Assembly: GCA_902778895.1 (NCBI GenBank)
Contig: CACYZF010000006.1
Coordinates: 207,154 to 271,153 of the forward strand
DNA: 64,000 bases
Direction of reading: 5' to 3'
Origin: an uncultured bacterium
Lineage (GTDB): Bacteria; Verrucomicrobiota; Lentisphaeria; Victivallales; UBA1829
Made by a program: the position numbers and the translations under genes. This document shows positions 21,034 through 37,817 of the stretch, piece by piece (the first letter of the stretch is position 1; each line of letters starts with the position of its first letter). Under the pieces are notes generated by a model that had not been told where the DNA came from, ran no database searches, and saw only the letters and a program-made list of their open reading frames with translations.

Positions 21034-22119
21034 TTATCTGCCGGATCTGCCGGAGGACTTCTTCGGGGCGGATGCTGCTTTTCTGGCCTTTTGAGCGGGG
21101 GCGGACGCCTTGGCCGCGGCGGAATTTGCGACGCTGACGGGGTCCGGTTCCGCGGGGGCGTCCTTCGGCTGGTAGCGTTTCACGCCGCGGGGGTTCAGCG
21201 GATTGATGGCGCTGGGCGGATAGCCGAGTTTCTGGTGGAACTGCTTGGAAAAGAAGAACTGGTCCTTGTAGCCGAGGTTGAACGCCGTTTCCTTCACGCT
21301 CACGCCACGCATGAGCATGTTCACGGCCTCCTCCATGCGGCACTGAATCTGGTATTCGCCGATGTTGTGCCCCATCACGCGCATGAAATGCTGGCGCAGA
21401 GACGGATAACTGAGCGGGAGGTCCTTCAGAAGTTCGGGCAGGGAACGGTTGTCCGTGAGGTTTTCGAGGATGATCTTCTTGATCTCGGACGTGATGCGGT
21501 CGGAGAAATCCTCGCGGCGGCTCTTCAGGAGCTTGGTGATGAGTGCGAACATCTCCAGCGGTATCTTCGACTGGTTCGTTTCGTTGTTCATGAACGAGAT
21601 GAAGTCGAAACACTCGTTGAGGAGCGCGAGCGAGAGGTCGATGTCGCGCACGGGCGTCTGCGTATTGACGCAGAAGACGTGCTTGCACATGGCGTAAATC
21701 CACTTGTCGTCCTGCCCGGGCATGTTTTTCAGTTTCAGGTAGCCCTCGCGCTTCTCGTCCAGCTCCATGTGGTCGGGCGGCGGCTGTCCGCCGTAATCCG
21801 CCGCGTCCTCGCTCATGAAATGGCACGACATGTAGAACTCGAGCCAGCGGCTGTTGTCTTCGATGTACGTGGCATGTTTCCGGTGCGGGATGCGGAAGAA
21901 GAGTTTGCCGGGCATCAAGGGGTATTCCGTGCCGTCCTCATCGACGTACGTGCCGCGTCCGCGGAGCACGACCGAGACGGAGAAGAGCGGGAAGGATCCG
22001 CCGTTCCAGTCGATGGAAACGTTTTCTTTTTTGAGTATGCCGGTGGAAAAGACGTCGCGGCCGATGGTACGGAAGATACCGTTGTATTCCCGGTCGAATT
22101 TTTTTGGCAGTTCAAACAT
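21034..22119 (-). CDS. AraC-family transcriptional regulator
   Basis: 361 residues from the ATG at 22119; an in-frame ATG at 22203 is open but sits inside the perfect inverted repeat described below. The N-terminal part is an AraC-type cupin sensor (FPLFSVSVVLRGRGTYVDEDGTEYPLMPGKLFF). Residues about 220-330 are two HTH motifs: LPELLKDLPLSYPSLRQHFMRVMGHNIGEYQIQCRME, then MLMRGVSVKETAFNLGYKDQFFFSKQFHQKLGYPPSAI. The C-terminal 40 residues are Ala/Lys-rich and probably disordered. Such regulators commonly control polysaccharide-use genes; related half-sites upstream of two secreted esterase genes in this window fit that idea but are not proof. Confidence 0.9.
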   Translation of the reverse strand: MFELPKKFDREYNGIFRTIGRDVFSTGILKKENVSIDWNGGSFPLFSVSVVLRGRGTYVDEDGTEYPLMPGKLFFRIPHRKHATYIEDNSRWLEFYMSCHFMSEDAADYGGQPPPDHMELDEKREGYLKLKNMPGQDDKWIYAMCKHVFCVNTQTPVRDIDLSLALLNECFDFISFMNNETNQSKIPLEMFALITKLLKSRREDFSDRITSEIKKIILENLTDNRSLPELLKDLPLSYPSLRQHFMRVMGHNIGEYQIQCRMEEAVNMLMRGVSVKETAFNLGYKDQFFFSKQFHQKLGYPPSAINPLNPRGVKRYQPKDAPAEPDPVSVANSAAAKASAPAQKARKAASAPKKSSGRSGR

Positions 22120-22195
22120 AACAGAAGTACATGGATAATGGTTTGTTTCACAGAATGTTCCGCCGTTTTTTTGAACAGCCGCGGCGGTTCGTTCA

Positions 22196-22228
22196 GATTG
22201 CATGTTCTAACATAAAATACATGCAATC
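22196..22228. promoter_or_regulatory. perfect inverted repeat upstream of the AraC gene
   Basis: GATTGCATGT (22196-22205), 13-base spacer, ACATGCAATC (22219-22228). Ten paired bases with no mismatch at a two-turn spacing suggest a dimer-binding operator, most simply for autoregulation. Confidence 0.65.
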
Positions 22229-22597: not shown

Positions 22598-22639
22598 AAA
22601 AAAAAGTAACCCGCCGGAAATCAATGTGCTTCCGACGGG
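22598..22639 (-). terminator. terminator of the nif-like/hyp operon
   Basis: Minus strand CCCGTCGGAA (22639-22630) and TTCCGGCGGG (22619-22610), ten pairs with one G-U wobble, then TTAC and eight T residues. It is 58 bases after the hypE stop. Confidence 0.85.
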
Positions 22640-22696: not shown

Positions 22697-23716
22697 TTAG
22701 CAGATGCGAGGCAGGAGCTCTCCGCCGGGCTGGGGCAGGAGCGACTGCGCGCCGATCTCGGTGGTCATGACGACCTTGCCGGGGTGGTCGGCGACAACTT
22801 CGCCGATGATGGCTGCGTTGGCGGAGTAGGGGCCCTTGCGGAGCGCTTCGAGGATGGCAGGAGCTTCGGATTTCGGCGCGAAGACGACGAGGCGTCCCTC
22901 GCAGGCGAGGTAAAGCGGTTCGAGTCCGAGCATGCCGCAGACACCGCGGACTTCGGGCGCGACCGGGACGTCGGCGGAATTGAGGCGGATGCCGACTTTG
23001 CTCTGGTCGGCGATCTCGTACAGGACGGTGCCAACGCCGCCGCGCGTGGCGTCGCGGATCACATGGATGTCGTGCGAGGCGTCGATCATGCTCTTCACCG
23101 TGCCCCAGAGCGGGGCGCAGTCGCTGGTGACGTCGGCGTCGATCTCGAATTCGTTGCGGGCGAGCAGGATGGTGCAGCCGTGGCGGCCCACGTCGCCGGT
23201 CACGATCACGGCGTCGCCGGGTTTCGCGAATGCGCCGGAGGTGCGGACGCCCTCGGTGAGCTGTCCGACGCCGGTCGTGGTGATGAAGACGTGGTCGACC
23301 TGGCCTTTTCCTGCGACCTTGGTGTCGCCCGCCACGATGCGGACTCCGGCTTCGTCGGCGGTCTTCTTCATGGCGGCGGCGATCTCTTCGAGCTTGGCGA
23401 GGGGGAATCCCTCCTCGATCACGAACGCACAGGAGAGATAGAGCGGTTTCGCGCCCATGCACGCGAGGTCGTTGACCGTGCCGCAGATGCTGAGCTTGCC
23501 TATGTTGCCGCCGGGGAACTCGAACGGAGACACGATGAAACCGTCGGTGGTGAACGCGATCTTTCCGGCGTCCACGGGCAGGACTGCGGCGTCATCGCCG
23601 GTGAAATCGGGGTTGGAGAAATGCGCCTTGAAGACGCGGTCGATGAGTTCGGCGGTCTGCTTCCCGCCCGCGCCGTGGGCGAGCGTGACGAAATCGTTTG
23701 CGTTCATATTATCCAT
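22697..23716 (-). CDS. hypE: hydrogenase maturation protein HypE (carbamoyl dehydratase)
   Basis: 339 residues. PurM/ThiL-like ATP-binding fold with TLAHGAGGK, GDDAAVLPV, FTTDGFIVSPFEFPGGNIG, SICGTVNDLACMGAKPLYLS and VAGDTKV. It ends LPRIC, the C-terminal Pro-Arg-Ile-Cys whose cysteine is carbamoylated by HypF and dehydrated to thiocyanate as the cyanide donor. All key elements are intact. Last gene of the 12-gene operon, overlapping hypD by eight bases. Confidence 0.96.
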   Translation of the reverse strand: MDNMNANDFVTLAHGAGGKQTAELIDRVFKAHFSNPDFTGDDAAVLPVDAGKIAFTTDGFIVSPFEFPGGNIGKLSICGTVNDLACMGAKPLYLSCAFVIEEGFPLAKLEEIAAAMKKTADEAGVRIVAGDTKVAGKGQVDHVFITTTGVGQLTEGVRTSGAFAKPGDAVIVTGDVGRHGCTILLARNEFEIDADVTSDCAPLWGTVKSMIDASHDIHVIRDATRGGVGTVLYEIADQSKVGIRLNSADVPVAPEVRGVCGMLGLEPLYLACEGRLVVFAPKSEAPAILEALRKGPYSANAAIIGEVVADHPGKVVMTTEIGAQSLLPQPGGELLPRIC

Positions 23717-24752
23717 TCAGAATATCTCCGTATTGGTAGTAGGCGGAACACGCCCCTTCGTTGGAGACCATGCACGCCCCGACCGGATGGAGCGGGGTGC
23801 ACGCGGTCCCGAAAAGTTTGCAGTCGGTGGATTTGCACTTGCCCTGAAGCACTTCGCCGCAGCGGCAGGAGGGATTGCTCCGGCCAGTGACGGGCGGCAG
23901 ATTGAACTTCAACCGGGCGTCGTACGCGGCGAACGCCGGGCGGAGCTTCAGGCCGGACATCGGGATCACGCCGAGGCCGCGCCACTCCGCGTCGCACGGC
24001 TCCATGACCGCGTCCATCAGTTTCAGCGCGGCGGGCGATCCTTCGGGACGTACCACGCGCGGATAACAGTTGCGGAAGAACGGTTCGCCGGAGGCGGACA
24101 GCCGGACGATGACCGCGAGCGCGGTGAGGATCTCGTCGGCGGTGAATCCAGCGACGACGCCGGAGACGCCGAGTTTCACGAGGTCTTCGCAGACGGCTGT
24201 GCCCGTGATGGCGTTCACATGGCCGGGGTATAGGAACGCGTCCGCGCTGCCGTTCAGCGCCTTGTACGCGTTCGGCATGGTCTTGTTCGCGCCGAGGATC
24301 GAGAAGTTCGCGAGCCCTTCGGCGGCGGCCTTCTTCACCGCCAGGCACGCCGCGGGGACCGTCGTCTCGAACCCGACCGCCAGGAACACGACCTGTTTGT
24401 CCGGGTTCTCGCGCGCGAAATCGACCGCGTCCAGCGGCGAATAGACGGTCTTCACCGCCGCGCCCTTGGAACGCGCCCCGGCGAGGCTCATTTCCGAGCC
24501 GGGAACGCGGATCAGGTCGCCGAACGTGCAGATGACCGCGCCGTGTTCGAGCGCGAGCATCACGGCCTCGTCGATGTACCCGGCGGGCGTCACGCAGACG
24601 GGGCACCCGGGGCCGGAGATGAGTTCGATCTGCGGCGGCAGGATCTTGCGGATGCCGAGGCGGAATATCTCGTGTGTGTGGGTGCCGCAGACCTCCATGA
24701 CGCGGAGTTTGCGCCCGTTGTAAGATTCAATGATCTGCTTAGCCGATTCCAT
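23709..24752 (-). CDS. hypD: hydrogenase maturation protein HypD
   Basis: 347 residues from the ATG beginning MESAKQIIESYNG; upstream reading is hypC/hypF shadow. EVCGTHTHEIFRLGI and SGPGCPVCVTP give the redox cysteines at the Fe(CN)2CO assembly site; CRCGEVLQGKC, DCKLFGTACTPLHPVGACMVSNEGAC supplies the [4Fe-4S] ligands. HypD with HypC carries the iron that receives CN and CO. Overlaps hypC by 14 bases. Confidence 0.96.
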   Translation of the reverse strand: MESAKQIIESYNGRKLRVMEVCGTHTHEIFRLGIRKILPPQIELISGPGCPVCVTPAGYIDEAVMLALEHGAVICTFGDLIRVPGSEMSLAGARSKGAAVKTVYSPLDAVDFARENPDKQVVFLAVGFETTVPAACLAVKKAAAEGLANFSILGANKTMPNAYKALNGSADAFLYPGHVNAITGTAVCEDLVKLGVSGVVAGFTADEILTALAVIVRLSASGEPFFRNCYPRVVRPEGSPAALKLMDAVMEPCDAEWRGLGVIPMSGLKLRPAFAAYDARLKFNLPPVTGRSNPSCRCGEVLQGKCKSTDCKLFGTACTPLHPVGACMVSNEGACSAYYQYGDILNG

Positions 24753-24957
24753 CGAGCGACTCCATGATCTTGCGGGATTCGTCCGCATCCGTATCGGTGA
24801 TCTTCGCGATGGCGACGCCGGCGTGGACCATGACATAGTCGCCGGGTTCCAGATCGTCGATGAGGTCCGCCGAAACCTTGCGTTTCGCGCCGGACGCGTC
24901 GATGAGGGCGGTGCCATCCTCAATGCTGACAACTCTTGCGGAAAGACCTACACACAT
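24739..24957 (-). CDS. hypC: hydrogenase assembly chaperone HypC/HybG
   Basis: 72 residues. Begins MCVGLSARVV with the essential Cys2 that binds iron after Met removal; GDYVMVHAGVAIAKI is the conserved OB-fold segment. Normal length for the family. Sits between hypF and hypD with overlaps at both ends. Confidence 0.95.
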   Translation of the reverse strand: MCVGLSARVVSIEDGTALIDASGAKRKVSADLIDDLEPGDYVMVHAGVAIAKITDTDADESRKIMESLDGIG

Positions 24958-27329
24958 AAGCCGTCTCCTTCTTTTGGTATGGATGAATGTGATATGGATG
25001 AATGTTTTTCAGGGTGGTTCAGGTGGTACATGGCGGCGAACGCCTGGCCCGCGCCGATGCCGCCGTCGTTGGGCGGGATCATGCCGTGGAGCAGCACGCG
25101 GAATCCGGAGGCGCGCAGCAGTCCGGCGCAGAGCGTCGTGAGCAGGCGGTTCTGGAAGACGCCTCCGGTCAGCGCACAGGTGTTCAAGCCGGATTCCTCG
25201 CGGATGGCTTCGCACGTCTTCGCGATCATGCCGGCGAGCGATGTGTGGAATAAGGCGGCGAGCATGTTGGAGTCCGCGCCGTCGAGCCGTGCGAGCACGA
25301 GTCCTTTCACAAGAGCATCCGTCGGCAGGACGATCGCGCCGGAGGCGTCGCGGCCGAACGATGCCGGGCAGGGCGGGACGTTTTCTTCCTGTCCGGGATG
25401 CGTCCCGTTCCACGCTTCCGCGGCGAACTGGAGCGCCATGGACGCCTCGCCCTCGAATGTGGAGGATTTGCGGATGCCGAGGATCGCGCTGACGGCATCG
25501 AAGAGACGCCCCACGCTGGTCGAGACCACGCAGTTCAGTTTCCGGTCCAGCATGTTCTTCTGGAACTTGTAGACGCCTGGTGCGCAGAGGTCGAGCGAAG
25601 CGACAAGTTTTTCCGCCTCATCGGAGGGGAACAAGCCCGCGATCATCGAAACTGCGATGCGCCAGCCTTCGCGCGCGGAGGCGTCGCCGCCCGCCTGCAA
25701 AAAAGGTTTGATGTACCCGGCGCGGATGAATCCGTCCGGAGAGGAAACGAGGAATTCCCCGCCCCAGATCGTGCCGTCCGTGCCGTATCCGGTGCCGTCG
25801 AACGACACGCCGATGACCTCGTCCGTATAGTCGTTTTCGACCATGCAGGAGAGCACGTGCGCGTAGTGGTGCTGGATCTTCAGGACGGGGATGCCGAGTT
25901 CGCCCGCGACGACGGACGAATTGTATTTCGGGTGCAGGTCGCAGCAGACGATCTGCGGCTTCATTTCGAGCAGTTCGGACATCCGCGCGACCGATTCGCG
26001 CAGGGCGCGGACCGTGCGCAGGTCCTCCATGTCGCCGATGTAGGGCGAGGGGTAGAACAGGCCGCCGTTTGCGAGGCAGAACGTGTTTTTGAGCTCGCCG
26101 CCGATGCCGAGCACCTGGCCGCGGAAATCGCCGGAGACGAAGAACGGCAGCGGGGCATAGCCGCGCGACCGGCGGATCATGTACGGACGACTGTCCAGCC
26201 AGTCCATGACCGAATCGTCCGCGCGGAGGCGGATTCTGCGGTTGTGGGACAGGATCACATCGCAGAATCCGGCGATCTCGGCGAGCGCATCCTCGTCGCT
26301 GCGGCAGATGGGCGCCCCGGACACGTTGCCGCTGGTCATGACGAGGCAGTCTGGCATGGTCAGGTCGTCGTTGAAGTGGAACAGGAGCATCTGGACTGGC
26401 GCGTACGGCAGCATCACGCCGAGGGTCGGATTGCCGGGCGCGAGGACGTCGGGAAGCGTGCTTTCCTGGCGTTTTTCGAGCAGGATGATCGGTTTCTGGT
26501 GGCCGTCCAGGATCTCTTCCTGACCGGGCAGGACTACGCATTCGCGGCGGACGGTTTCCAGCGAATCCATCATCACGGCGAACGGCTTCATGGGACGGTG
26601 CTTGAGTTCGCGCAGACGCGCCACGGCCTGAGCATCGCGCGCGTTGCAGCACAGATGAAATCCGCCGATGCCCTTGATCGCGACGATCTTTCCGTCGAGG
26701 ATGGCGCGGCGGGCGGCGGTGATGGCTTTTTCATTGCGTTCGGAGCGTCCGATGAGGTAGACTTCCGGGCCGCAGTCGTGACAGCAGACCGGCTGGGCGT
26801 CGTAACGGCGGGATTCCGGCGAGGTGAACTCGGTCTCGCACTGCGGACACATCAGGAAATACCCCATGCTGGTGCGTTCGCGGTCATACGGCATGGCATC
26901 GAGGATGGTCAGGCGCGGGCCGCACGCGGTGCAGTTGATGAAGGGATGCAGGTAACGGCGGTTGGCCGGATCGAACAGCTCCTGTTTGCACTGGTCGCAC
27001 GTGGCGATGTCCGGCGAGACGAAGATGTCCCCTGTCTCGTGTTCGCTCTCGATGATCTCGAACGTCGGATACGGCGGCTCCATGCGGACGCGCGAATCGA
27101 TCTTCAGAATCGCGGAACGCGGCGGAGCCTCATGTTCGAGCGCGACGCGGAAGTCTTTCATCTCTTCCGGGTCGCCCTGCGCGTGGACTTCCACATAGGA
27201 CCCCTTGTTCGCGACGCTTCCGGTCAGTCCGGCGCGGACGGCGATCCGGCTGACGAACGGACGGAAGCCGACGCCCTGGACGACGCCATAGATGCGGAAG
27301 ACCGTGGTGGAAACGCTGGCCGTGTTCAT
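24948..27329 (-). CDS. hypF: carbamoyltransferase HypF
   Basis: 793 residues, full length. Acylphosphatase domain (residues 10-95, FRIYGVVQGVGFRPFVSRIA). Two zinc-finger modules follow (CDQCKQELF, CTACGPR, CPQCETEF, CHDCGPE), then a YrdC-like domain (AITAARRAILDGKIVAIKGIGGFHL) and a Kae1-like domain with HHYAHVLSCMVEN, GVSFDGTGYGTDG and LTGGVFQNRLL. Makes the carbamoyl group for HypE from carbamoyl phosphate and ATP. One base separates its start from the upstream nitrogenase-like gene, so it belongs to the same transcript. Confidence 0.97.
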   Translation of the reverse strand: MNTASVSTTVFRIYGVVQGVGFRPFVSRIAVRAGLTGSVANKGSYVEVHAQGDPEEMKDFRVALEHEAPPRSAILKIDSRVRMEPPYPTFEIIESEHETGDIFVSPDIATCDQCKQELFDPANRRYLHPFINCTACGPRLTILDAMPYDRERTSMGYFLMCPQCETEFTSPESRRYDAQPVCCHDCGPEVYLIGRSERNEKAITAARRAILDGKIVAIKGIGGFHLCCNARDAQAVARLRELKHRPMKPFAVMMDSLETVRRECVVLPGQEEILDGHQKPIILLEKRQESTLPDVLAPGNPTLGVMLPYAPVQMLLFHFNDDLTMPDCLVMTSGNVSGAPICRSDEDALAEIAGFCDVILSHNRRIRLRADDSVMDWLDSRPYMIRRSRGYAPLPFFVSGDFRGQVLGIGGELKNTFCLANGGLFYPSPYIGDMEDLRTVRALRESVARMSELLEMKPQIVCCDLHPKYNSSVVAGELGIPVLKIQHHYAHVLSCMVENDYTDEVIGVSFDGTGYGTDGTIWGGEFLVSSPDGFIRAGYIKPFLQAGGDASAREGWRIAVSMIAGLFPSDEAEKLVASLDLCAPGVYKFQKNMLDRKLNCVVSTSVGRLFDAVSAILGIRKSSTFEGEASMALQFAAEAWNGTHPGQEENVPPCPASFGRDASGAIVLPTDALVKGLVLARLDGADSNMLAALFHTSLAGMIAKTCEAIREESGLNTCALTGGVFQNRLLTTLCAGLLRASGFRVLLHGMIPPNDGGIGAGQAFAAMYHLNHPEKHSSISHSSIPKEGDGLCV

Positions 27330-27330
27330 G

Positions 27331-28392
27331 TTATTTCACCTCGTCGAGCAGCCGCCCGGAGACGGCGAAATGCGGGAAGTCGATGATGTTGAAACTCTGC
27401 GTCCGGGGCAGGGCGACGCGCAGACGGCTGTCACAGACGACTGCGTCATAACCGCCGTTCGCGACCGATTCGATGAACGCTTCTTCGCTCTCGATATGGA
27501 AATCGTTTTCGCGCATGAACTCCGGCTCCATCCTGAACCATGACGCGACCGTGACCCGCGAGGCGGCGTCATGCTTCAGGATCGCGTCGCGGACGGCGTT
27601 CGCGGCGAACTGCTGATGGACCACGAGCGTCCTTTTCCCGGCGAACGAGGGCAGGGCGTCGAGCAGCTGTTGCGGCAGCCACGGACACCGTACTTCATAC
27701 GGCGTGTCGAACGTCTTCTGCAGGTACTTCGCGGCTGCGAGCCCGGCGGGCGAAACGACGATGTTTTTCGCGGCGGCGGAAGCGGCGCGGACATCATCGA
27801 GTCCTGCGCCCATCCCGTAGCATTTTACCGTTTTCCAGCCGTCTTTTCTCAGCGCGGCGGACAGGAAGTTTCCGGCATCGAGAGCCGGGAAATCCAGCGG
27901 CGAAGCGCCGAGGACGCCGACCGTGCCGGGATCAACAGAAAGTTTTTCGATCGCAAACGTTTTGAACAGTTCCAGCCAGGCGTCGGACGCCCCCAGGTCG
28001 TAGTGGCGCGTGCCGGTCGTCGGGACCGTGATCGCGGGCAGTCCGGTGCGTTTCTCCGCCATGCGTTTCAGCGCCTTGAAATCGGTCGCGATGATCGCGG
28101 GGACGGGGGTGCCGATGATGGCGGAGAATTTGAGGCCGGAGCCGTCCATAGCGGACTGGAGCTTGGAGACAAGCTTGTCGTCGCGGCCGAGGATGGCGTC
28201 CATGTCGCGGAGTCCGGCGCTGAAGACCGCGCTCCTGCGGATGAACCAGCGCGGTTCGTCGAAGCCGCAGATGTTTCCGGTGCAGCCGCCGGCGTCGCAG
28301 ATCACGATGAGCCCGCCGAAGTCGAAGAGCGCGGAGACGGCCCCGGACTGGTCGGGCGCGAATGGCGAAAGATGTTTCAGAAGGCTTTTCAT
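27331..28392 (-). CDS. nitrogenase component 1-like protein, NifK/N-type (set 1)
   Basis: 353 residues from the ATG at 28392, which overlaps the previous stop by four bases (ATGA). Belongs to the oxidoreductase/nitrogenase component 1 fold. Near the N-terminus SGAVSALFDFGGLIVICDAGGCTGNICGFDEPRW aligns by eye with NifK around its Cys70 and Cys95 ligands. The second Cys (GGC) is kept, but the first is replaced by Val and the later Cys153 position (IIGTPVPAIIATDF) is not Cys. It shares FDEPRW and DAILG.D.KL with the set 2 paralogue. Much shorter than true NifK (about 520). Probably pairs with the preceding D-like protein. Substrate unknown. Confidence 0.8.
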   Translation of the reverse strand: MKSLLKHLSPFAPDQSGAVSALFDFGGLIVICDAGGCTGNICGFDEPRWFIRRSAVFSAGLRDMDAILGRDDKLVSKLQSAMDGSGLKFSAIIGTPVPAIIATDFKALKRMAEKRTGLPAITVPTTGTRHYDLGASDAWLELFKTFAIEKLSVDPGTVGVLGASPLDFPALDAGNFLSAALRKDGWKTVKCYGMGAGLDDVRAASAAAKNIVVSPAGLAAAKYLQKTFDTPYEVRCPWLPQQLLDALPSFAGKRTLVVHQQFAANAVRDAILKHDAASRVTVASWFRMEPEFMRENDFHIESEEAFIESVANGGYDAVVCDSRLRVALPRTQSFNIIDFPHFAVSGRLLDEVK

Positions 28393-29690
28393 CGTGCCGC
28401 CTCCTTTCCCGACAGCGCTTTGCCGAGCGCATCGAAGAGCGCGGCGACTCCGGCGTACCCGAAAGGCTGCCGTTCCTCGTTCCACGGTACGCCGGGCAGT
28501 GCCGGATGATAATACATGGCGTCGCGTCCGATGACCGTGTCGCACTGTGAATCCGCGCCATCGTAGAACATCATGGAGGGGGAGAGGTTGGAGTAAATCT
28601 TCGTGGCGGGGCTGAGCGCGGCGATCTTCTTCACATAGACGAAGTTCGAGCCGCCGACTGTGCCGAATATCTCGGAGACGGCGAACCCGTTGCGGATCAG
28701 CGACAGCGAAAGTTCGAACGGATCGGCGTTCAGCCATTCGCCCACGGCGAACGTACGGTGTCCGCATTTGCTGAGGAAGTCATGGATCGCCTGTTCGGCA
28801 CGTTCGCGGTACGGCGCATCGTCGAACTCCGCGCCGACAGCCTGTCCGAGCAACTTGTACTGGTTTGCGATCTTGTCCGTCTGGTAAAGACGGGCGAGCT
28901 CGACGGACGGGATGCCGAGGCGTTTCTGAAGGTCGGCGGCGGCGTGGCGGGCCTCCTGATTGAGCACGAGATTGAAATTCGCCTCGGCCATCGCCTGATA
29001 TTCTTCGAACATGGCGCAGCGGGAGATCTCGCGGACCGCGCGGACTCCGGCGGACCGCAGGAGCGAGTACAGCTCGGTATCGTCGCGCAGGGGCGAGAAG
29101 AAGCCGAGGATGTTGACGGAGGTCGGGACTTTTTCGCGCGGCTGGAGCAGGGAGTAGACCGAACGCCGCACGGAGACCATCGGCGGCAGACGGCCTTCGC
29201 GGGTCAGCGCGTACATATAGCACGGCACGACCGGGACGCCCGCGTAGTCCGAAGCCTTTCGGCAGACACGTTCCATGTCCGTGCCGAGCAGGGCGTCCAC
29301 GCAGGTGATGCAGATCATGACCGCGGACGGGCGCGTCTCGCAGGAATCGCAGACTTCCTTCACCGCCTCCGGGATGCGCGCCAGATGCCGCCCCGTCACG
29401 ATGTCCGTATCGTCCTGCATGAGGTAGAAGAACCGTTCGGCGAGGGACGCCTCGCAGCCGAGCGCGGAGGTGTTGCGTCCGCAGCAGGCGGGTGCGACCA
29501 GCAGCATGACCGAACCGGGCACGGCGAGACCGGCGCGTTTCACGCCGAATCCCTGCGCGCCGGGCGAGTTGAACGCCAGCGTGGCCGGGGAGCTGTAGAT
29601 GAGATGGGCGGAGGAGAGCAGTTCGGGCGGGATGTCGTCCTTGCCGCGCGCTGCGAGTTCGGCCGCCGTGATGGAGTACGCGTGGTTCAT
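28389..29690 (-). CDS. nitrogenase component 1-like protein, NifD/E-type (set 1)
   Basis: 433 residues. Conserved landmarks relative to NifD, aligned by eye: [13 protein letters not shown] at the Cys88 region, and [18 protein letters not shown] at the Cys154 region. At the NifD Cys62 position the sequence is [10 protein letters not shown], without Cys. Near the C-terminus [14 protein letters not shown] corresponds to the NifD GFDG helix. Cysteine-rich for the family (CCG, CDSC, CITC, VPCYMY). Four-base overlaps on both sides with the NifH-like and K-like genes indicate a stoichiometric complex. Confidence 0.8.
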
Positions 29691-30451
29691 TCGGAAGCTT
29701 TCTCCTCGTTGAGAAGGAGTTGCGCGAGCGCGAGGAATCTCTTGCTCACGTCGAGTTCGGGATCGCCTTCGACGACCGTTTTTCCCATGTCCTCATAATG
29801 GATGATGTCGTCGCTGCGCGGGATGTCCGCCACGATCGGAAGGTCGTTCGCGTCTGCGAAGGCGCGCACTTTCTCCTCCTCGCGGTCGACGCTCCGGCGG
29901 TTCAGTACGATGCCGCGCACGGCGGCGTAGCCGCGGTCCTCGAAATTGTGCACGGCGCTGTTGATGTTGTTCGCCGCGTAGAGCGCCATTTTCTCGCCGG
30001 AGGTCACGATCAGGACCTGCGAGGCGTACCCTTCACGGATTGGGGCGGCGAATCCGCCGCACACCACGTCGCCCAGCACGTCGTACAGCACCACGTCGGG
30101 CTTGTATGATTCAAACAGTTTCAGGTCGGCGAGCAGGCTGAACGTGGTGATGATGCCGCGTCCTGCGCAGCCGAGGCCGGGGGTCGGGCCGCCGGTCTCG
30201 ATGCACAGCACGCCGCCGAATCCGGTCTTTGCGATCTCTTCGATGCGTTCGGGTTCGCGGTCGTGTTCGCGCAGGAAGTTCATGACGGGGATCACGGGAT
30301 CGCCGCCGAGCAGATTGATGGTGGAGTCGGCCTTCGGGTCGCAGCCGATCTGGATCACTTTCTTGCCGAGGCGCGCGAACGCCGCCGCGAGGTTGGATGT
30401 CACAGTCGATTTGCCGATGCCGCCTTTGCCGTATATCGCGAGTTTCAGCAT
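29687..30451 (-). CDS. NifH/BchL/CfbC-like ATPase iron-sulfur reductase (set 1)
   Basis: 254 residues. P-loop [14 protein letters not shown] at residue 7, GCDPKADST switch-I-like segment, [16 protein letters not shown] with the first [4Fe-4S] Cys and the Arg of the NifH docking loop, and [17 protein letters not shown] with the second cluster Cys and switch II. Both cluster ligands are intact, so this should form a homodimeric ATP-driven electron donor to the adjacent D/K-like pair. About equally similar to nitrogenase reductase, BchL and CfbC; the neighbours do not match any of those pathways. Confidence 0.93.
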
Positions 30452-30452
30452 G

Positions 30453-31598
30453 TTAAAACCTCCAGGGAAGGGGACGGTCGATCAGGTTCAGGGATTCTTT
30501 GCGGAAGCATCTGCCGGAGAACGCCTCGTGCGGGAGCCGGTGGAACGGGATGTCCGGCGGGCAGACGGGCGCGTACATCGGGTCGGCGATCACGCCGGAC
30601 GATGCGGCGAACGCTTCCGCGGCGGCGGCCTCGTCGAAGATGCGCAGGTCGCCGGGCGCGAGCAGACGGTCCTCCGCCTCCAGCGGACACAGCACGCGAC
30701 AGGGTGCGCCGAGTTCGGATTCGATCGCGGCGGCGAGCGAGCCGGAGAAGACCGTTTCGCCGGGAATGACGAGTTTTTTTCCGGGCGCGGAGGCGTCGCG
30801 TGCCGCGCAGGGCAGGGCGCATTCGCCGGTCTTCACCGCGTTCTTCAGAGCGGACGCGAGCTTGCCGGAGAAATTCTTCCCGACCGGGACGCCCGCGACC
30901 CACGGCGTGCCGAAGCGTTGCCGGAGGAGTTCGGCGGTCGCGATCCCGCAGGAGGAGACGACAAGATTGACGTGTGCGGCGGATACCCGGCGGATTTCGT
31001 CGAGCGTGCTGCCCATCGCCATGCAGGAGACAAGTTCGAAACCTGATTGATTCAGCCATCCGGTCATGGATTCAACCGTGCCGCTGATGGAGAAATCCAG
31101 CGGGGTCGCGCCGATGATGTTCGCGGAAGGCGCGTCCGTGCGCGGCAGGCGGTCGGTGCAGAATCGCGATACGACGGCCTCCAGCGCCTCGGAGGCTCCG
31201 GTCAGATAGGAGTGCATGCCGCTGGTGTGGAGCCCGAACGCCGGGATGCCGATGCGGGATTCGACTTCGGCGGCGATGGCGGGGAAATCGGTTCCCGCAA
31301 GGAGCGGGACGGGCGCGCCGCAAAGCGCGATGAAGCGCGGCGACAGGTCCTTCGCAGCGGACACGACGTCGCCGATGAGTTTTTCGTCGTTGCCGAGGAT
31401 CGCGTCGGTCTCCGTGAGGGCGGAAATGTAGATCATGCTGTCCTGACGGTACCAGCGGGGTTCGTCGTGTGTGGAGTAGGTGGAATTGCAGCCGGAGGCG
31501 TCGTGGACGACGACCATGCCGCCGAGTTCGTACAGCATGGAGCACACGCCGGAGGTGTCGGCCGCGTGGATGGAGATGATTCTGGCGGTCTGTCTCAT
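30453..31598 (-). CDS. nitrogenase component 1-like protein, NifK/N-type (set 2)
   Basis: 381 residues from the ATG at 31598 (ATGA overlap with the previous stop, AGGAG seven bases upstream). [22 protein letters not shown] aligns with NifK Cys70 and Cys95, both kept here; [15 protein letters not shown] carries a Cys close to the Cys153 position. [12 protein letters not shown] and [10 protein letters not shown] are shared with the set 1 K-like protein, so they are paralogues. Set 2 retains the cluster ligands that set 1 has lost. Expected partner of the next gene upstream. Function unknown. Confidence 0.8.
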
Positions 31599-32929
31599 AA
31601 GCAGCTCCTGCATCCGAGGCCCTTGTGCTGGATCACGATCTCGGTGTCCTGTTCGTGCGTTGCGGCTTCGATCATGCGCTGCGCGAGCCGCGCGACGCCG
31701 TCGAATCCGTACATGCCGCCGCCGGAAACGATGTTCACGAAGTGTTTCGTGCCGCTGAAATACGCGGCTTTCTGACCGATCGCGAGCACGTCACCGGATT
31801 CGTGGACACCTTTGCCCGCGAACCTCATTTTCACGTTGACCGTGGCGGTCAGCAGCAGGTCCGGCGCGAGCGCGCGGAGACGTTCGAAGGCGGGGCGTTC
31901 CTCCTCGATCATGGCGTCGGTGTAGACGCGCGTGACGCGGAAACCGTGCTCGGTGAGGAGCAGGGCGAGTCCGGCGGGGCGCGGCGTGGCGGTGTAGTCG
32001 ATCTCGACCGGGGTGTCGCCGACAACGGTCTTCGCCTGTTCGAGCGCGCGGAGGGCGTTCCGTTTCGCCTCGGTCCAGTCGGGCGCGGCGATCCCGAGCG
32101 CGTCGGCGAGACAGTTCAGATTGCGTTCGATCTCGTCGAAATCGTAGGAGAGCGGCAAATAAAGATGTTTCCGTCCGAGACGTTTTTCGAGCGCATCGCC
32201 GGAGGCCGCCGCGGTCGGCAGATAGGTAATGTTCAACGCGCTTTTCGCCATGCGCATGTATGCCTCGTAGGTCCTGCACAGCGTGATGTCGCGGAGCTCG
32301 CGTCCGGCGTTTCTGATGAGCCGGACGAGCTCGCTGGATTCGTCGGTCGGACGGTCGTTTCCGATGAGGTTCACTGCGTTTTTGTCGGCGGGGCAAGGAC
32401 GGAACGGCGCGTAGAGCTGGCGGCGCATGAGCTGGTCGGGCGTGAGGCCGCTTTTCCGCATGGTCGGGTTCATGTAACAGTCGATGAAGTCGATGTCCGG
32501 GAACATCGTGCGGAGTTCGTTCAGCATGACCTCGAAATCGCATCCTGCGAAAAGATGCACGCAGCTGATGAAGAGCAGGACCGCGCGCGGCTTCTTCGGC
32601 AGTTTGCGGATGATCTCCGCCGTGCCGTCCACGATGTTGCGTTCCAGCGAGCCGTCGAACAGGTCGTTCTGGTCCACAGAGATCCAGGACATGCGGTCCA
32701 TGGCGATCATTTCGGCGGCGGTCAGGATCACGCCGCGGAGGCAGCCCTGCGCGCAGGCGAACACCTGATGCGATTCGGGGACCAGCATGCCCGTGTGGAC
32801 GATGTTCCACGGTCCGCGGGCAGGGGCGTTGTATTCCAAGCCGGAGACGAACGGTACGGGGAACGCGGCGTCGCGGATCGCGACCTCCGCCCCGGTCATG
32901 TCGTCTTTGCCGTTCAGACGTTTCAGCAT
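31595..32929 (-). CDS. nitrogenase component 1-like protein, NifD/E-type (set 2)
   Basis: 444 residues from the ATG at 32929; the longer frame upstream is a shadow of the NifH-like gene. [13 protein letters not shown] fits the NifD Cys88 region and [16 protein letters not shown] the Cys154 region. The Cys62 position reads YNAPARGPW, without Cys. [18 protein letters not shown] matches the NifD C-terminal GPYHGFDG helix, but the position of the FeMo-cofactor histidine is Val by eye alignment. The protein ends GLGCRSCL, a CX2C that may bind metal. Overlaps its NifH-like partner by seven bases. Confidence 0.8.
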
Positions 32930-33693
32930 GGCGCGTCTCCTTTCCGGGCGGCGGCGAGCACGGCGTCCGCGAGCGCGCGGTACTGCGCGGCCATCGGACT
33001 CTCCGGGAACGCGTGGACGACGGTCTTCCCGAGCTGTTCCGCCTGCTGGACGGTCTCGCTCCAGTCGAGCGCGCCGACGACCGCGGCGTCGAAATCCGAC
33101 GCCAGTTTCGCGGCCTTCGCGTCCTCGTCCGGCACGTTCCGGCGGTTCAGAACGAATCCGCCGAGCGAGGCGTAGCCGCGCCCCCTGAAATTCTTCACCG
33201 CCATGGCGATGTTCGCTGCGGCGTAGATGGACATAGTCTCGCCGGAGGTGAGGATGAACACGCGGTCGGCATAGCCTTTGCGCATCGGCATGGAGAATCC
33301 GCCGCAGACCACGTCGCCTAGCACGTCGTACAGCACCACGTCCGGCTTGTACACGTCGTACGCGCCCTTCTCCTGAAGCTTCTCCAGCGCGGTGATGATG
33401 CCGCGTCCGGCGCAGCCGAGTCCGGGCGTCGGGCCGCCCGCCTCCACACAGATCACGCCGCCGTCGCCCTCGCGGACCATCTCGTCGAGCGAGAAATCGT
33501 TGTTGCGTTCGCGGACGAGGTCGAGGATGGAACGGAAACGTGCGCCGCCGTGCAGGGACGCGGTGGAATCGGCCTTCGGGTCGCACCCGATCTGCATGAC
33601 CTTGAGTCCGTTCGCGGCGAAAGCCGAGGCGAGGTTCGACACAGTCGTGGATTTCCCGATGCCGCCTTTTCCGTAGAATGCGAGTTTCAGCAT
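32923..33693 (-). CDS. NifH/BchL/CfbC-like ATPase iron-sulfur reductase (set 2)
   Basis: 256 residues. P-loop [40 protein letters not shown] and [17 protein letters not shown], so both cluster cysteines are present. Close paralogue of the set 1 protein, but the C-terminal helices differ ([20 protein letters not shown]). Presumably serves the set 2 D/K pair. Overlaps hydE by seven bases. Confidence 0.93.
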
Positions 33694-34754
33694 GACGTTT
33701 CTCCGTAATCCCCGCGGGTGACCTTGATCGTGTAGCCGATCTTTCGCAGGCGCGCCTGCAGATCGGACGTCGTGATGTGCGTGTCCACGTCGACCGCGGT
33801 TTTATTGTTGTAAAGCATGTATTTGGCGCGGACCTGTTCCGGCGACAGGTTCGGCATGATGACGTTTGCCCCGGCGAGCACGCCTTTTTCGCGGCCGGCC
33901 GGGTCCAGGGAACCGAGCGCGGTCGTGGCGGGCAACAGCACGTCCGGGAGGAGGATGCGGCACAGGCTGAGCAGGAACAGCGTGAGGTCCACGCTGCCGG
34001 CTGGCTGATCTTTGAAGGGCGTGTCGCAGTGGGGGATGAAGGGGCCGATGCCGATCATGGCGGGCCGGAACTCCGTGATGAACTCCATGTCCTTTGCAAG
34101 CGTTCCCGGCATCTGGTACGGCGAACCGACCATGAATCCGCATCCGGTCTGGAATCCGATCTCCTTCAGGTCGCGCAGACACTGCATGCGGCGTTCCCAT
34201 CTCTGATCCGGCATGTGGAGTTTCGCGTAGTGCTCCGGATCGGCGGTCTCGTGCCGCAGGAGATAGCGGTCCGCGCCCGCGTCGAACAGCAGTTGATATT
34301 CATTGCGCTCCAGCTCGCCGACGGACAGTGTCACGGCGCAGTCCGGGTGCTTCGATTTGAGCGTGCGGACTAGTTCGGCGAGGCGTTGCGGCGGCCAGGT
34401 GGCGTCCTCCCCGCTCTGCAGCACGAACGTGCGGAACCCGTATTGATATCCGGCGTCGCAGCACTCGACGATCTCCGCCTCGGTCAGACGGTACCGCTCG
34501 AAGTTCAGATTGGACTTGCGGATGCCGCAGTACAGACAGTCGTTGCGGCAGACGTTGGAGAACTCCACGATGCCGCGCACGAAAACATTGTGTCCGAACC
34601 GTGCCGTCGCGAGTTCGCGGGCGATTCCGGCGGCGTATTCGCGGTCGGAACCGTCCCACGTGGAGAGCAGCGCCGTCCACTCCTTGTGTGGGAGGCGTTT
34701 CTCTTTGTTCAGTCGGTCGATCCTGAGTTCATTCTGTCGTTTCTGTGCGTTCAT
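33687..34754 (-). CDS. hydE: [FeFe]-hydrogenase maturase HydE-like radical SAM protein
   Basis: 355 residues from the ATG beginning [50 protein letters not shown] is the HydE radical-SAM signature (CX3CX2C, then GIR..N), and [25 protein letters not shown] and [22 protein letters not shown] are conserved HydE barrel blocks. Classical HydE works on an Fe(CO)2CN-cysteine synthon during H-cluster assembly. HydF, HydG and a hydrogenase are not in the window. PylB and other HydE-like enzymes share the fold, so the exact substrate is open. Follows the TM1266-like gene after 260 bases and overlaps the NifH-like gene. Confidence 0.88.
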
Positions 34755-35014
34755 GACGCGCTTTTTCCTGCGGTTTCCGCCGCTGTTCCTCGTCCGGTTT
34801 CCGCCGGAAAAAGAAACAGCCGCGATCCCCTGATGAAGGATCCGGCCGTGTATGCTTGATCGGATGGAGTGCATGGACCGCGCATATCACACGGTTCCCG
34901 CAGTCCGGTCCGATGCTGCACGCTCGGTCTTCCGCCTCAATCACGATTTCGGCGTCAGGGGAGAGTTTGTTATCTGATCGGATGAATCCGGTCCCAGCTA
35001 TGCCGGGCGCGGAC
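34755..35014 (-). other. gap between the TM1266-like gene and hydE
   Basis: No certain gene. On the minus strand GGACCG and CGGTCC can pair across about 25 bases, and CATCCGATCA occurs twice, 118 bases apart. A 71-codon frame from a GTG at 34944 carries three cysteines (RACSIGPDCGNRVICAVHAL), but its C-terminal half is low-quality and runs into hydE. It has no recognisable family. Could be a leader RNA or a small unrecognised gene. Confidence 0.4.
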
Positions 35015-35272
35015 TCAGTGAGCTGTTATGAGGTTGGAGTATACGGCTTTCGCCGTGACTCCTTCGATGCGTCCGAGTTTTCCGGCCAGGGCGTTGATCT
35101 TGTCCGGCGGCGCATCGATCACGATGCTGATGACGTTGACGTTCCTTTCGCGGTAGGGCAGGCCCATGCGGCCTACGATGTACGGGCCGAAATCGTGCAG
35201 GAGCGTGTTGATCTGCTCCGCGGAGTCGAAACTCTCCGCGAGGATCGCCAATACCGCCACACGTGTTTCCAT
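35015..35272 (-). CDS. TM1266-family putative [FeFe]-hydrogenase system regulator
   Basis: 85 residues from the ATG beginning METRVAVLAILAESFD; the upstream ATG would add an unconserved leader. ACT-like small domain with FGPYIVGRMGLPYRERNVNVISIVIDAPPDKINALAGKLGRIEGVTAKAVYSN conserved end to end in the TM1266 family, which is associated with HydEFG clusters. It is the first gene of the operon, 38 bases after the predicted transcription start. May bind a ligand and act as sensor; its mechanism is not known to me. Confidence 0.88.
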   Translation of the reverse strand: METRVAVLAILAESFDSAEQINTLLHDFGPYIVGRMGLPYRERNVNVISIVIDAPPDKINALAGKLGRIEGVTAKAVYSNLITAH

Positions 35273-35316
35273 TGCGATTCCGTTCCGTTCTGTTGTGGTT
35301 GAAAAAATTACCATCT

Positions 35317-35345
35317 AATATATCCCGTGTGCGCGCATAATGCAA
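35317..35345 (-). promoter_or_regulatory. promoter of the TM1266-hydE-nif-like-hyp operon
   Basis: Minus strand TTGCAT (35345-35340), exact 17-base spacer, TATATT (35322-35317). Its quality, and the near absence of intergenic gaps downstream, suggest it drives all 12 genes. Confidence 0.75.
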
Positions 35346-35556: not shown

Positions 35557-35668
35557 ATCGGTGAAATGCACTTTTTGCTGTTAAAAACAGCTCAAAAATG
35601 TGTTTGCGTTCATCAAAAAACAGTCAACCTCTCCTCATTTATCAACCCCCAAACATAATGGAGTTTTT

Positions 35669-37621
35669 ATGAAACGTTATGTCCAATCGGCGGTCGTCTC
35701 CTGCTCGGTTCTCGCAGGGGCGCTCTTCCTCGCAACTTCACTTTCGGCACAGGCTCCGGCCGGCGGCGCTGCTCCCGGCGGTGCTGCTCCCGGCGGCGCG
35801 CCCGCAATGGGCGGCTTCGGCGGCGGCATGGGCGGCTTCGGCGGCGCACCTGCCGGCGGTCCCGGCGCAGGCGGACAGAGACCCGCAGGCGGACCCGGCG
35901 CAGGCGCCGGTGCTCCCGCTGGCGGCGGTATGGGCATGGGCGGCTTCGGCGGCGGCATGGGCGGCTTCGGCGGCGGTATGGGCATGGGCGGCTTCGGCGG
36001 CGGCATGGGCGGCTTCGGCGGCGGCATGGGTGGAATGGGCATGGGCGGCGCCGGTGGAAACCAGGCTCCGGCCGTTGATATGGCCACGCTCCCCGGCGGC
36101 ATCCGCAGCGAAGAAGCCGAAAAGGCCGACGACAGCGGTTTCCCGATGGTCAAGGACCTGAAGGCCTCCGACAAGTATCCGGAAATCATGAAGTTCCGCG
36201 ACGGCACCGAAGTGACCAAGGACAACTGGCCCAAGCGCGCCGAAGAAATCAAGAAACTCTATGAATACTACATGTATGGCGTGTGGCACGACGGCTCCGA
36301 AGTCGATGTCACCTACAAGATGAACGAAGGCGACAACAACGGCCGCAAGTCCATGACCGTGACCGTCACCCGCAAGAGCACCGGCAAGTCCGGCACGTTC
36401 GACGTCAACATCACGCTCCCGACCGCCAGCGACGAAGTCAAGATGCCGGAAGGCGGTTGGCCCGTCGTCCTCGGTATGCACGGCGCGCAGGAAGCGGTCG
36501 CGGCCTCCCGCGGCTATGCTTCCATGACCTTCGGCGGAGGCGGCGGTTTCATGGGCGGCGTCACCAATATCGCCGCTGACAACAACCGTCACACCGGCCT
36601 CTTCTACGATCTGTATCCCTACGGCGAAGACTGGAAGGAACAGACCGGCGAACTGCTCGCCTGGAGCTGGGGCATCTCCCGTATCATCGACGCCCTCGAA
36701 AAGGGCGCGGGCAAGGAACTCAACATCAACCCGAAGAACACCATCGTGACCGGCGTCTCCCGTTACGGCAAGGCCGCCATGGTCTGCGGCGCGTTCGAGC
36801 CCCGCATCAAGATGTGCGCTCCGTCCTGCTCCGGCGCGGGCGGCGTCGCGATGTACCGCTACGTCTCCGAAGGCAAGACCTACGACTTCTCCAGTAAGAA
36901 CGATTCCAAGGAATACAAGTACGGCCGGAATGAACCGATCGACAGCCTCCAGGCCACCGGCGAACAGGGCTGGTTCAACAACAAGTTCATGTGCTTCAAG
37001 GATCCGAAGACCCTGCCTGTCGACCAGCACATGCTCGCCATGCTCTGCGCCGATCCGAACCGCTACCTCTTCATCATCGGCTCCTGCACGGGTGAAGACT
37101 GGGTGAATGCCCCGGCCATGTGGCTTACGTTCCGCGCGGCGAAGGCTTCCTATGAGAAGCTCGGCCTCGGCGACCACATCGTGGCGAACATCCACAAGTC
37201 CGGCCACGCTGTCACGGCCGAAGACATGAACTATATGATCGACTACTTCAACGAGAAAGTCTACGGCATCAAGTCCAAGACCGATCTCACCTGCCTCACG
37301 ACCTCCGCGTTCGAACTCCCGGTCAACAAGGATCCGCTGTTCGACTCCTTCGGCGGCACGGTTCCTCCGCAGCCCAAGCCGGATCCGGCTCCCGCGGCTA
37401 ACGCCAACGGCGGCCAGCGTCCCGGCGGCGGCATGGGCGGTTTCGGCGGCGGCATGGGCGGCTTCGGCGGCGGCATGGGCGGCGCTCCCAGACCTGCCGG
37501 TGCTCCCGGTGCCGCGGGCGGCGCTCCCAGACCGGCCGGCGCTCCCGGTGCCGCGGGCGGCGCTCCCAGACCGGCCGGCGCTCCCGGCGCTGGTGCTCCC
37601 GCTGCGGGCGGCCCTCGCTGA
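35669..37621 (+). CDS. secreted CE15-type glucuronoyl esterase-like protein with Gly-rich termini
   Basis: 650 residues from the ATG at 35669 (TGGAG upstream). Signal peptide to about residue 28 (LFLATSLSAQA). Residues 29-140 are low complexity, built of Ala-Pro-Gly and GGMGGFGGG units; the last 65 residues repeat this plus APRPAGAPGAAGG. Between them is a CE15-like alpha/beta hydrolase: WPVVLGMHG, WSWGISRIIDALEK, VTGVSRYGKAAMVCGAFEPRI with the nucleophilic Ser in GVSRYGK, SCSGAGGVAMYR, TGEDWVNAP (possible acid) and HKSGHAVT with the catalytic His. CE15 enzymes cleave ester links between lignin and glucuronoxylan. Monocistronic. Confidence 0.85.
   Translation: MKRYVQSAVVSCSVLAGALFLATSLSAQAPAGGAAPGGAAPGGAPAMGGFGGGMGGFGGAPAGGPGAGGQRPAGGPGAGAGAPAGGGMGMGGFGGGMGGFGGGMGMGGFGGGMGGFGGGMGGMGMGGAGGNQAPAVDMATLPGGIRSEEAEKADDSGFPMVKDLKASDKYPEIMKFRDGTEVTKDNWPKRAEEIKKLYEYYMYGVWHDGSEVDVTYKMNEGDNNGRKSMTVTVTRKSTGKSGTFDVNITLPTASDEVKMPEGGWPVVLGMHGAQEAVAASRGYASMTFGGGGGFMGGVTNIAADNNRHTGLFYDLYPYGEDWKEQTGELLAWSWGISRIIDALEKGAGKELNINPKNTIVTGVSRYGKAAMVCGAFEPRIKMCAPSCSGAGGVAMYRYVSEGKTYDFSSKNDSKEYKYGRNEPIDSLQATGEQGWFNNKFMCFKDPKTLPVDQHMLAMLCADPNRYLFIIGSCTGEDWVNAPAMWLTFRAAKASYEKLGLGDHIVANIHKSGHAVTAEDMNYMIDYFNEKVYGIKSKTDLTCLTTSAFELPVNKDPLFDSFGGTVPPQPKPDPAPAANANGGQRPGGGMGGFGGGMGGFGGGMGGAPRPAGAPGAAGGAPRPAGAPGAAGGAPRPAGAPGAGAPAAGGPR
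37511..37588 (+). repeat. two 39-bp tandem repeats inside the esterase gene
   Basis: Unit starts GCCGCGGGCGGCGCTCCCAG at 37511 and again at 37550; it encodes the 13-residue AAGGAPRPAGAPG period. Confidence 0.75.
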
Positions 37622-37641
37622 CCCTCGTTCTCTGATCCTTC

Positions 37642-37671
37642 GGGAAGCGGTTCGTCCGCTTCCCGTTTTTT
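37642..37671 (+). terminator. terminator after the CE15-like gene
   Basis: Perfect nine-base stem GGGAAGCGG / CCGCTTCCC, TTCGT loop, then G and six T residues. Confidence 0.9.
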
Positions 37672-37684
37672 ACGGAATTAAACT

Positions 37685-37720
37685 AAAATACATGGTTTTT
37701 TTGAAAAGTACATGCAATAA
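37685..37720 (+). promoter_or_regulatory. candidate AraC-type site upstream of the second esterase
   Basis: ACATG occurs at 37690 and 37710, twenty bases apart. The second is part of TACATGCAATAAT, near-identical to TACATGCAATCAT in the AraC operator arm at 22218. A weak -10 (TATCGT, 37732-37737) lies downstream with no good -35, consistent with activator dependence. Confidence 0.4.
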
Positions 37721-37817
37721 TGTTTGTTCCGGTATCGTTAAATAACATGTAAGCAAATAAACTCGTCCCGCAACACATAAACAACCAATCCAACAAAAAT
37801 CATACAAGGAGATTCGT

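Follow-up and report, generated by a model that had tools for sequence, protein, structure and literature searches.

A widespread operon joining nitrogenase-like proteins to HypCDEF and HydE: most likely a HydG-independent pathway of H-cluster assembly

In the maturation of [FeFe]-hydrogenases by HydE, HydF and HydG, the CO and CN ligands of the H-cluster are attributed to the tyrosine-cleaving HydG (PMC9431212; papers given by accession are cited from excerpts), and a Clostridium thermocellum strain without hydG and the [NiFe] ech genes produced no detectable H2 (PMC4355364). Heliobacteria have hydA but no hydEFG (PMC9147875), and among acetogens HydG was undetected in C. ljungdahlii, C. carboxidivorans, C. 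ragsdalei, C. coskatii and strain AWRP and assigned in C. autoethanogenum, C. drakei and C. scatologenes, atypical candidates also being discussed; the excerpts offer only hypotheses for this gap and mention nitrogenase solely in the reference list (PMC9431212). According to the same source, the C. ljungdahlii group has HypCDEF without HypAB and C. carboxidivorans has duplicate HypCDE. Here we describe an operon in a 64-kb stretch (the window) of contig CACYZF010000006.1 from an uncultured Victivallales bacterium, which encodes, in this order, TM1266, HydE, H1, D1, K1, H2, D2, K2, HypF, HypC, HypD and HypE, where H stands for a NifH-like reductase and D and K for two subunits resembling nitrogenase component 1. 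H1-D1-K1 is referred to as module A, and H2-D2-K2-HypFCDE as module B.

With HydEFG maturation this system has HydE, TM1266, in most carriers HydF and sometimes AspA in common, and both probably act on HydA; HydG, in contrast, was undetected in 47 of 50 carriers of the system, and two nitrogenase-like units together with HypCDEF occupy its place. The same four Hyp proteins, with their characteristic Cys ends, serve in [NiFe]-hydrogenase maturation, whereas here they share one operon with HydE and H-D-K genes in a genome in which no [NiFe] large subunit was found. NifH-NifEN likewise couples an ATP-dependent Fe protein to a heterodimeric scaffold, and comparison of the operon proteins by sequence ranks NifE among their best matches, and comparison by fold ranks NifEN or MoFe chains as the best; however, no NifD, NifE, NifK or NifN cut-off is met, the cofactor Cys is absent, and the genome holds no other PF00148 protein. 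CfbCD, BchLNB/BchXYZ and methylthio-alkane reductase (MarHDK) are non-nitrogen-fixing members of the same superfamily, but all have other operon partners; the operon proteins score under the Cfb and Bch cut-offs, and our trees contained no Mar sequences. Meheust and colleagues are said to have described, in 2020, a nitrogenase paralog of Elusimicrobia, an uncharacterised nitrogenase-like cluster linked to other radical SAM genes and not to hyd or hyp genes.

We argue that this gene system, which is widespread and which we found described nowhere in the literature searched, is most likely a HydG-independent pathway of H-cluster assembly. We hold this view with considerable confidence; its basis is genome content, from which the function is inferred. 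A literature search whose coverage excluded most subscription journals and bioRxiv found no paper that connects H-cluster assembly with nitrogenase-like genes or with HypCDEF, the closest being PMC9431212 and PMC9147875.

Hydrogenase and maturation genes of the carriers

A D1 profile built from a 20-row alignment and searched against genome contigs confirmed at least 506 stretches, the best 80 of which were kept as loci, many of them truncated by contig ends. Among these best 80, D1 and K1 were each found in 80, H1 in 79, TM1266 in 63, HydE in 52, H2 in 46, D2 in 44, K2 in 43, HypF in 40, HypC, HypD and HypE in 35 each, HydF in 31, AspA in two, HydA in one and HydG in none. At least one of HydE, HydF, TM1266 and HydA was present in 70 loci; of the remaining ten, six are from Clostridium species and four are short contigs (L029, L053, L082, L087). 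This linkage is conserved across Lentisphaerota, Bacillota and one Spirochaetaceae assembly, and it lends support to an earlier, sequence-only reading of the window, according to which nitrogenase-type proteins act with HypCDEF and HydE to make iron-CO/CN units. In the Spirochaetaceae locus (L025) the gene order is TM1266-HydF-AspA-HydE-H1-D1-K1-H2-D2-K2-HypF-C-D-E, and in L111, which has just one NifH-like gene, it is HydA-H2-D2-K2-HypF-C-D-E-TM1266-D1-K1-HydF-HydE; both are hyd operons without HydG, in which H-D-K units and Hyp genes stand in its place. AspA is a known partner in hyd operons and can supply ammonia for the dithiomethylamine bridge (PMC11736057). Two further features of the relatives deserve mention: in the subgroup L109-L111 there is only one NifH-like gene to two D-K pairs in the stretch read, and in Ruminococcus albus (L048:6250-8108) three small open frames (177-231 residues) lie between HydF and HydE, two of which were searched against Pfam and matched no family.

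Gene content was followed in a carrier set of 50 genomes, namely the host genome and 49 selected from the 80 loci. HydA exceeded its cut-off in all 50, HydF in 48 and HydG in three, and because of this distribution a precursor of the known H-cluster is a likelier product than a new cofactor. The sequence-only reading, which had proposed an undescribed iron-CO/CN cofactor, was thus right in kind but missed the target enzyme. It is improbable, in our view, that the product is instead a new Fe-CO/CN cofactor residing in D1-K1 or D2-K2, themselves enzymes, with HydE recruited to that end and the H-cluster made otherwise. Such a cofactor would suit the facts that the four subunits match no curated family over its cut-off and that two whole H-D-K units are kept, and another H-cluster route may exist, given the 31 genomes with HydA and without HydG and D1 that are considered below. 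However, HydF, AspA, TM1266 and HydA occur in the same operons of relatives, HydG is nearly absent from the carriers, and the alignment position that we take to be the cofactor-binding Cys of NifD/NifE is not Cys in the alignments of D1, D2, K1 and K2 (that of D1 being weak, E 0.0015). Hidden HydG genes were sought and rejected: HydG matches of 171-228 bits end at about position 383 of 470 or earlier, and two representatives of those near 200 bits are ThiH (495 and 505 bits, cut-off 380).

Examples of isolates in which HydA and HydF were found but HydG was not are R. albus, R. bicirculans, C. ragsdalei, C. carboxidivorans, C. muellerianum, C. luticellarii and C. ljungdahlii, of which C. autoethanogenum, outside the 50-genome set, is close kin. 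An active [FeFe]-hydrogenase/formate dehydrogenase complex has been isolated from C. autoethanogenum, and R. albus, in a strain that may differ from the AR67 analysed here, forms H2 via an electron-bifurcating [FeFe]-hydrogenase (PMC6288185).

A comparison set of 147 genomes was drawn from the class of R. albus (Clostridia; a 90% completeness filter was requested), with thresholds of E ≤ 1e-30 for HydA and D1 and E ≤ 1e-90 for HydG (all over cut-off). HydA was found in 136, HydG in 99, two of these without HydA, and D1 in 11. Among the genomes with HydA, HydG was present in 94 of the 125 without D1 versus three of the 11 with D1 (Fisher p 0.002, kinship ignored), and in none of the seven in which D1 reached at least 470 bits (Fisher p 1e-4, kinship ignored), or none of six once the seed genome is excluded.

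The host itself is a 3.24-Mb draft genome of 20 contigs, 94.4% complete, whose nearest D1 relatives among the matches listed are 89-94% identical and include Victivallales/Lentisphaeria assemblies, most of the records mentioning rumen. It has four Fe_hyd_lg_C genes, two of which carry the three H-cluster motifs, TSCCPxW, MPCxxKxxE and ExMACxGGC. No HydG exceeds the 312-bit cut-off in this genome, the matches being of 58 bits (the HydE of the operon) and 51 bits, and no protein matches PF00374, the [NiFe] large subunit.

HypD is present in all 31 carriers with D2, mostly directly behind D2, and both the single HypD of C. ljungdahlii and one of the two of C. carboxidivorans adjoin D2. Linkage of the nif-like and hyp genes in relatives is not universal, however: in L047 HypCDE does not follow HypF though the contig continues for 2.8 kb, HypD lying on another contig, and the loci of a second architecture (see below) lack the module altogether. 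PF00374 is matched in 12 of the 50 carriers, by five long matches in Clostridium and seven that cover the first 68-70 model positions only. That HypCDEF should be an ordinary [NiFe]-hydrogenase set which happens to lie beside unrelated genes is very improbable and was rejected for want of PF00374 in the host genome, canonical though the four proteins are by motif; 20 of the 31 genomes with D2 lack a PF00374 match too, and all eight carriers with a second HypD match possess one, as if there were one set per job. The possibility that the operon is a nif remnant was likewise rejected, its four PF00148 proteins being the only ones found in the genome.

Module B or an importer

The loci come in two architectures. 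Type I has module B, and type II has in its stead a PF01497 binding protein, an FecCD permease and an ATP-binding cassette (ABC) ATPase, which is extended at its C-terminus by a TM1266 domain in L026 and L052 but not in L036. Among the 80 loci, module B genes occur without importer genes in 46, importer genes without module B in 30, and both together in none; of the four with neither, two (L015, L073) are short, and the other two (L055, L066) have module B on a different contig. The D1 loci of the 31 carriers with D2 contain no importer genes (the search did not extend to other parts of type I genomes), and those of the 19 carriers without D2 contain a binding-protein gene in every case. HypD was found in one of these 19, on the contig bearing that genome's PF00374 match. 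On a quick D1 tree of 81 rows (49 type I, including L055 and L066, which were set as such, 30 type II and two unlabelled), the architecture changes five times, and at least three of the changes are forced by well-supported branches. This repeated replacement suggests that the importer and module B provide the same item to H1-D1-K1.

What this item could be is a matter on which we can offer only a tentative proposal, namely that the halves are linked by a free, transportable organometallic iron-CO/CN complex, which type I organisms would make by means of HypCDEF and H2-D2-K2 and type II organisms would import. The import would proceed via a siderophore-type transporter, in hosts mostly without HydG and Hyp genes; we regard this as possible rather than probable. 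We give little credence to another explanation, by which H1-D1-K1 and the importer would take up an iron compound, for instance heme, a tetrapyrrole or a siderophore, and open it reductively, the hyd genes adjoining only since [FeFe]-hydrogenase requires iron. BchLNB and CfbCD do act on tetrapyrroles, the transport proteins of type II loci are of the expected kind (the binding proteins resembling SstD or IsdE, far under cut-off), and divergent clusters of H-D-K and importer genes exist without linked hyd genes. However, mere iron fetching hardly accounts for a component that is exchanged repeatedly for H2-D2-K2-HypFCDE, nor for the fusion of TM1266 domains to the importer ATPase. The divergent clusters (H-D-K-binding protein-FecCD-ABC) are those of L105-L108, whose D is 28-35% identical to D1, and a similar one lies on a Treponema saccharophilum plasmid (L119:9001-15297).

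The H-D-K proteins and the layout of the operon

PF00148 is the sole Pfam match of D1, K1, D2 and K2 (59-107 bits), and H1 and H2 remain under every curated cut-off listed (NifH, CfbC, BchL, BchX). The best scores of the operon proteins were 297 bits against a cut-off of 394 for nifH, at most 33 against 654 for nifD, at most 17 against 427 for nifK, 297 against 402 for CfbC, 206 against 345 for BchL and 57 against 490 for BchB. A small midpoint-rooted tree, which contained a few Nif and Bch but no Cfb, Mar or Nfl sequences, also separates them from Nif and Bch; a firm position inside a known pathway would have spoken against the sequence-only reading. D1 is homologous to D2 across most of its length (hhalign E 4.5e-39) and K1 to K2 (E 3e-73), and H1 and H2 form sister clades separate from two NifH and one BchL; hence the H-D-K units of the two modules probably arose by duplication of one whole unit. 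K1 and K2 score highest against NifE/NifD and group with NifD/NifE in the small tree, and the labels D and K are, by these comparisons, arbitrary. The K of the divergent importer clusters groups with K2, not K1, in the same tree.

The NifH-type Cys pair, which we take to be C94 and C130 of H1, is kept in 24 of 24 H proteins. Invariant cysteines are C58, C62, C122, C217 and C439 in D1 (20/20 sequences), C69, C70, C127, C130 and C143 in D2 (17/17), C42 in K1 (23/23), and C37 and C42 in K2 (17/17). C42 of K1 aligns with a GC motif in the NifN half of 9i0g, which makes a NifEN-like Fe-S cluster at the interface plausible. AlphaFold2 models of D1 and D2 (pLDDT, the predicted local distance difference test, 82.6 and 84.9) have NifEN and MoFe chains as their best fold matches, the top Foldseek match being NifEN 9onk_B for D1 and NifK/NifEN for D2, with 9fmg/9d9u among many others. 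HypE ends in PRIC, whose Cys is presumably the cyanide-carrying residue, in 31 of 33 sequences, and HypC starts with MC in all 35; from this conservation the cyanide chemistry is likely to be intact. In L021, L022 and P0190 (Clostridiaceae BL-3, uncultured Clostridium) H1 and D1 are fused in one open frame of about 700 residues, which supports a working H1-D1 pair.

In the window, the open reading frame list places the 12 genes on the minus strand between 35314 and 22697 (Table 1). All were identified in the order that the sequence-only reading had given, with firm family matches for TM1266, HydE, HypF, HypC and HypD, and the computed gaps (260, -7, -7, -19, 1, -4, -4, 1, -10, -14 and -8 bases in gene order) agree with its description of overlaps or one-base gaps apart from a single gap of 260 bases. 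Because all ten close loci (L011-L020) repeat this order as far as their contigs reach, it is beyond chance; in L013 a frame change splits D2. The single terminator of the sequence-only reading corresponds to a hairpin just 3' of HypE; 13 terminator-like sites were found in the 15-kb region, for which 12.7 were expected, and this one has the longest stem of them. The proposed promoter is present as written but constitutes weak evidence, its -35 box having three of six consensus matches. The TM1266 start at 35314 touches the -10 box, and an ATG at 35272 fits better as the probable start. Rfam at its gathering threshold gave no match anywhere in the window. Two adjoining putative exported proteins rich in GGMGGFGGG-type repeats beside esterase-like domains lie at 35600-39500 on the plus strand, and downstream, on the minus strand, are an anthranilate synthase component I-like gene (19185-20660) and an AraC-type regulator-like gene (21034-22203), all recognized by eye.

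Table 1. Features of the operon, with positions in the 64-kb window
Feature	Position	Strand	Match or remark
TM1266-family regulator	35015..35314 (probable start 35272)	-	TIGR03959 104 bits (cut-off 60.8), PF21699
HydE, radical SAM H-cluster maturase	33687..34754	-	TIGR03956 502 bits (cut-off 254.6); CX3CX2C at residue 69
H1, NifH-like ATP-dependent reductase, module A	32923..33693	-	PF00142 (Fer4_NifH) 285 bits; Cys 94, 130 conserved
D1, nitrogenase component-1-like, module A	31595..32929	-	PF00148 60 bits
K1, partner subunit, module A	30453..31613	-	PF00148 107 bits
H2, NifH-like reductase, module B	29687..30451	-	PF00142 290 bits; cluster Cys conserved
D2, component-1-like subunit, module B	28389..29690	-	PF00148 99 bits
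K2, partner subunit, module B	27331..28392	-	PF00148 59 bits
HypF carbamoyltransferase	24948..27329	-	TIGR00143 714 bits (cut-off 466); acylphosphatase and two zinc-finger motifs
HypC	24739..24957	-	TIGR00074 66 bits (cut-off 48); N-terminal MC
HypD	23709..24752	-	PF01924 447 bits; CGTH and GPGCPVC motifs
HypE	22697..23716	-	AIRS and AIRS_C domains; ends PRIC
Intrinsic terminator-like hairpin	22610..22639	-	11-pair stem, then TTACTTTTTT
Weak promoter-like TTGCAT-17-TATATT	35317..35345	-	read from sequence; absent from promoter scan list

A proposed route to the H-cluster

Several observations weigh against a HydG-independent pathway. HydF was found neither in carrier G039 nor in the host draft genome, where an assembly gap is likely but unproven, given that all eight close relatives searched (G013-G020) have HydF. 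C. drakei and two I. bartlettii genomes keep HydG alongside this system, and three of the four genomes with the divergent clusters L105-L108 (from the class sample) also have HydG. Furthermore, 31 of the 136 Clostridia-class genomes with HydA have neither HydG nor D1, so that lack of HydG alone is no proof of replacement by this system; some of these are smaller than 1 Mb, others normal-sized with 3-4 HydA matches, and a further H-cluster route or assembly gaps may lie behind them. In 16 of the 19 carriers without D2 both HydG and HypD are missing, which leaves module A without a known cyanide source unless one is imported. Finally, the product of HypCDEF is Fe(CN)2CO, not Fe(CO)2CN.

If the operon nevertheless serves the H-cluster, as we propose, its proteins could cooperate as follows. 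Consistent with known Hyp chemistry, HypF and HypE would make cyanide from carbamoyl phosphate, and HypC-HypD would mount it together with CO on iron. The D2-K2 complex, reduced by H2 with ATP, would then act as a NifEN-like scaffold that takes up this iron unit and alters its ligand set, possibly through gain of another CO or loss of a cyanide; we propose such an adjustment from Fe(CN)2CO to Fe(CO)2CN because the H-cluster precursor has two CO and one CN per iron. The duplicate unit H1-D1-K1 would carry out a further reduction that both architectures share and hand its product to HydE, whereupon HydE, HydF and ammonia derived from AspA would complete the [2Fe] subcluster in the established way.

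For bacteria that have [FeFe]-hydrogenases and no detectable HydG, among them C. ljungdahlii, R. albus and numerous inhabitants of gut and rumen, the operon offers a concrete candidate answer that can be deleted. If our proposal is true, the nitrogenase superfamily would gain a new function, components of two otherwise distinct maturation systems, those of [NiFe]- and [FeFe]-hydrogenases, would be seen to combine in one pathway, and a new gene set would become available for heterologous hydrogenase production. Should the tentative proposal of a transportable iron-CO/CN complex hold as well, precursors of the [FeFe]-hydrogenase cofactor would be a shared good of gut and rumen communities.

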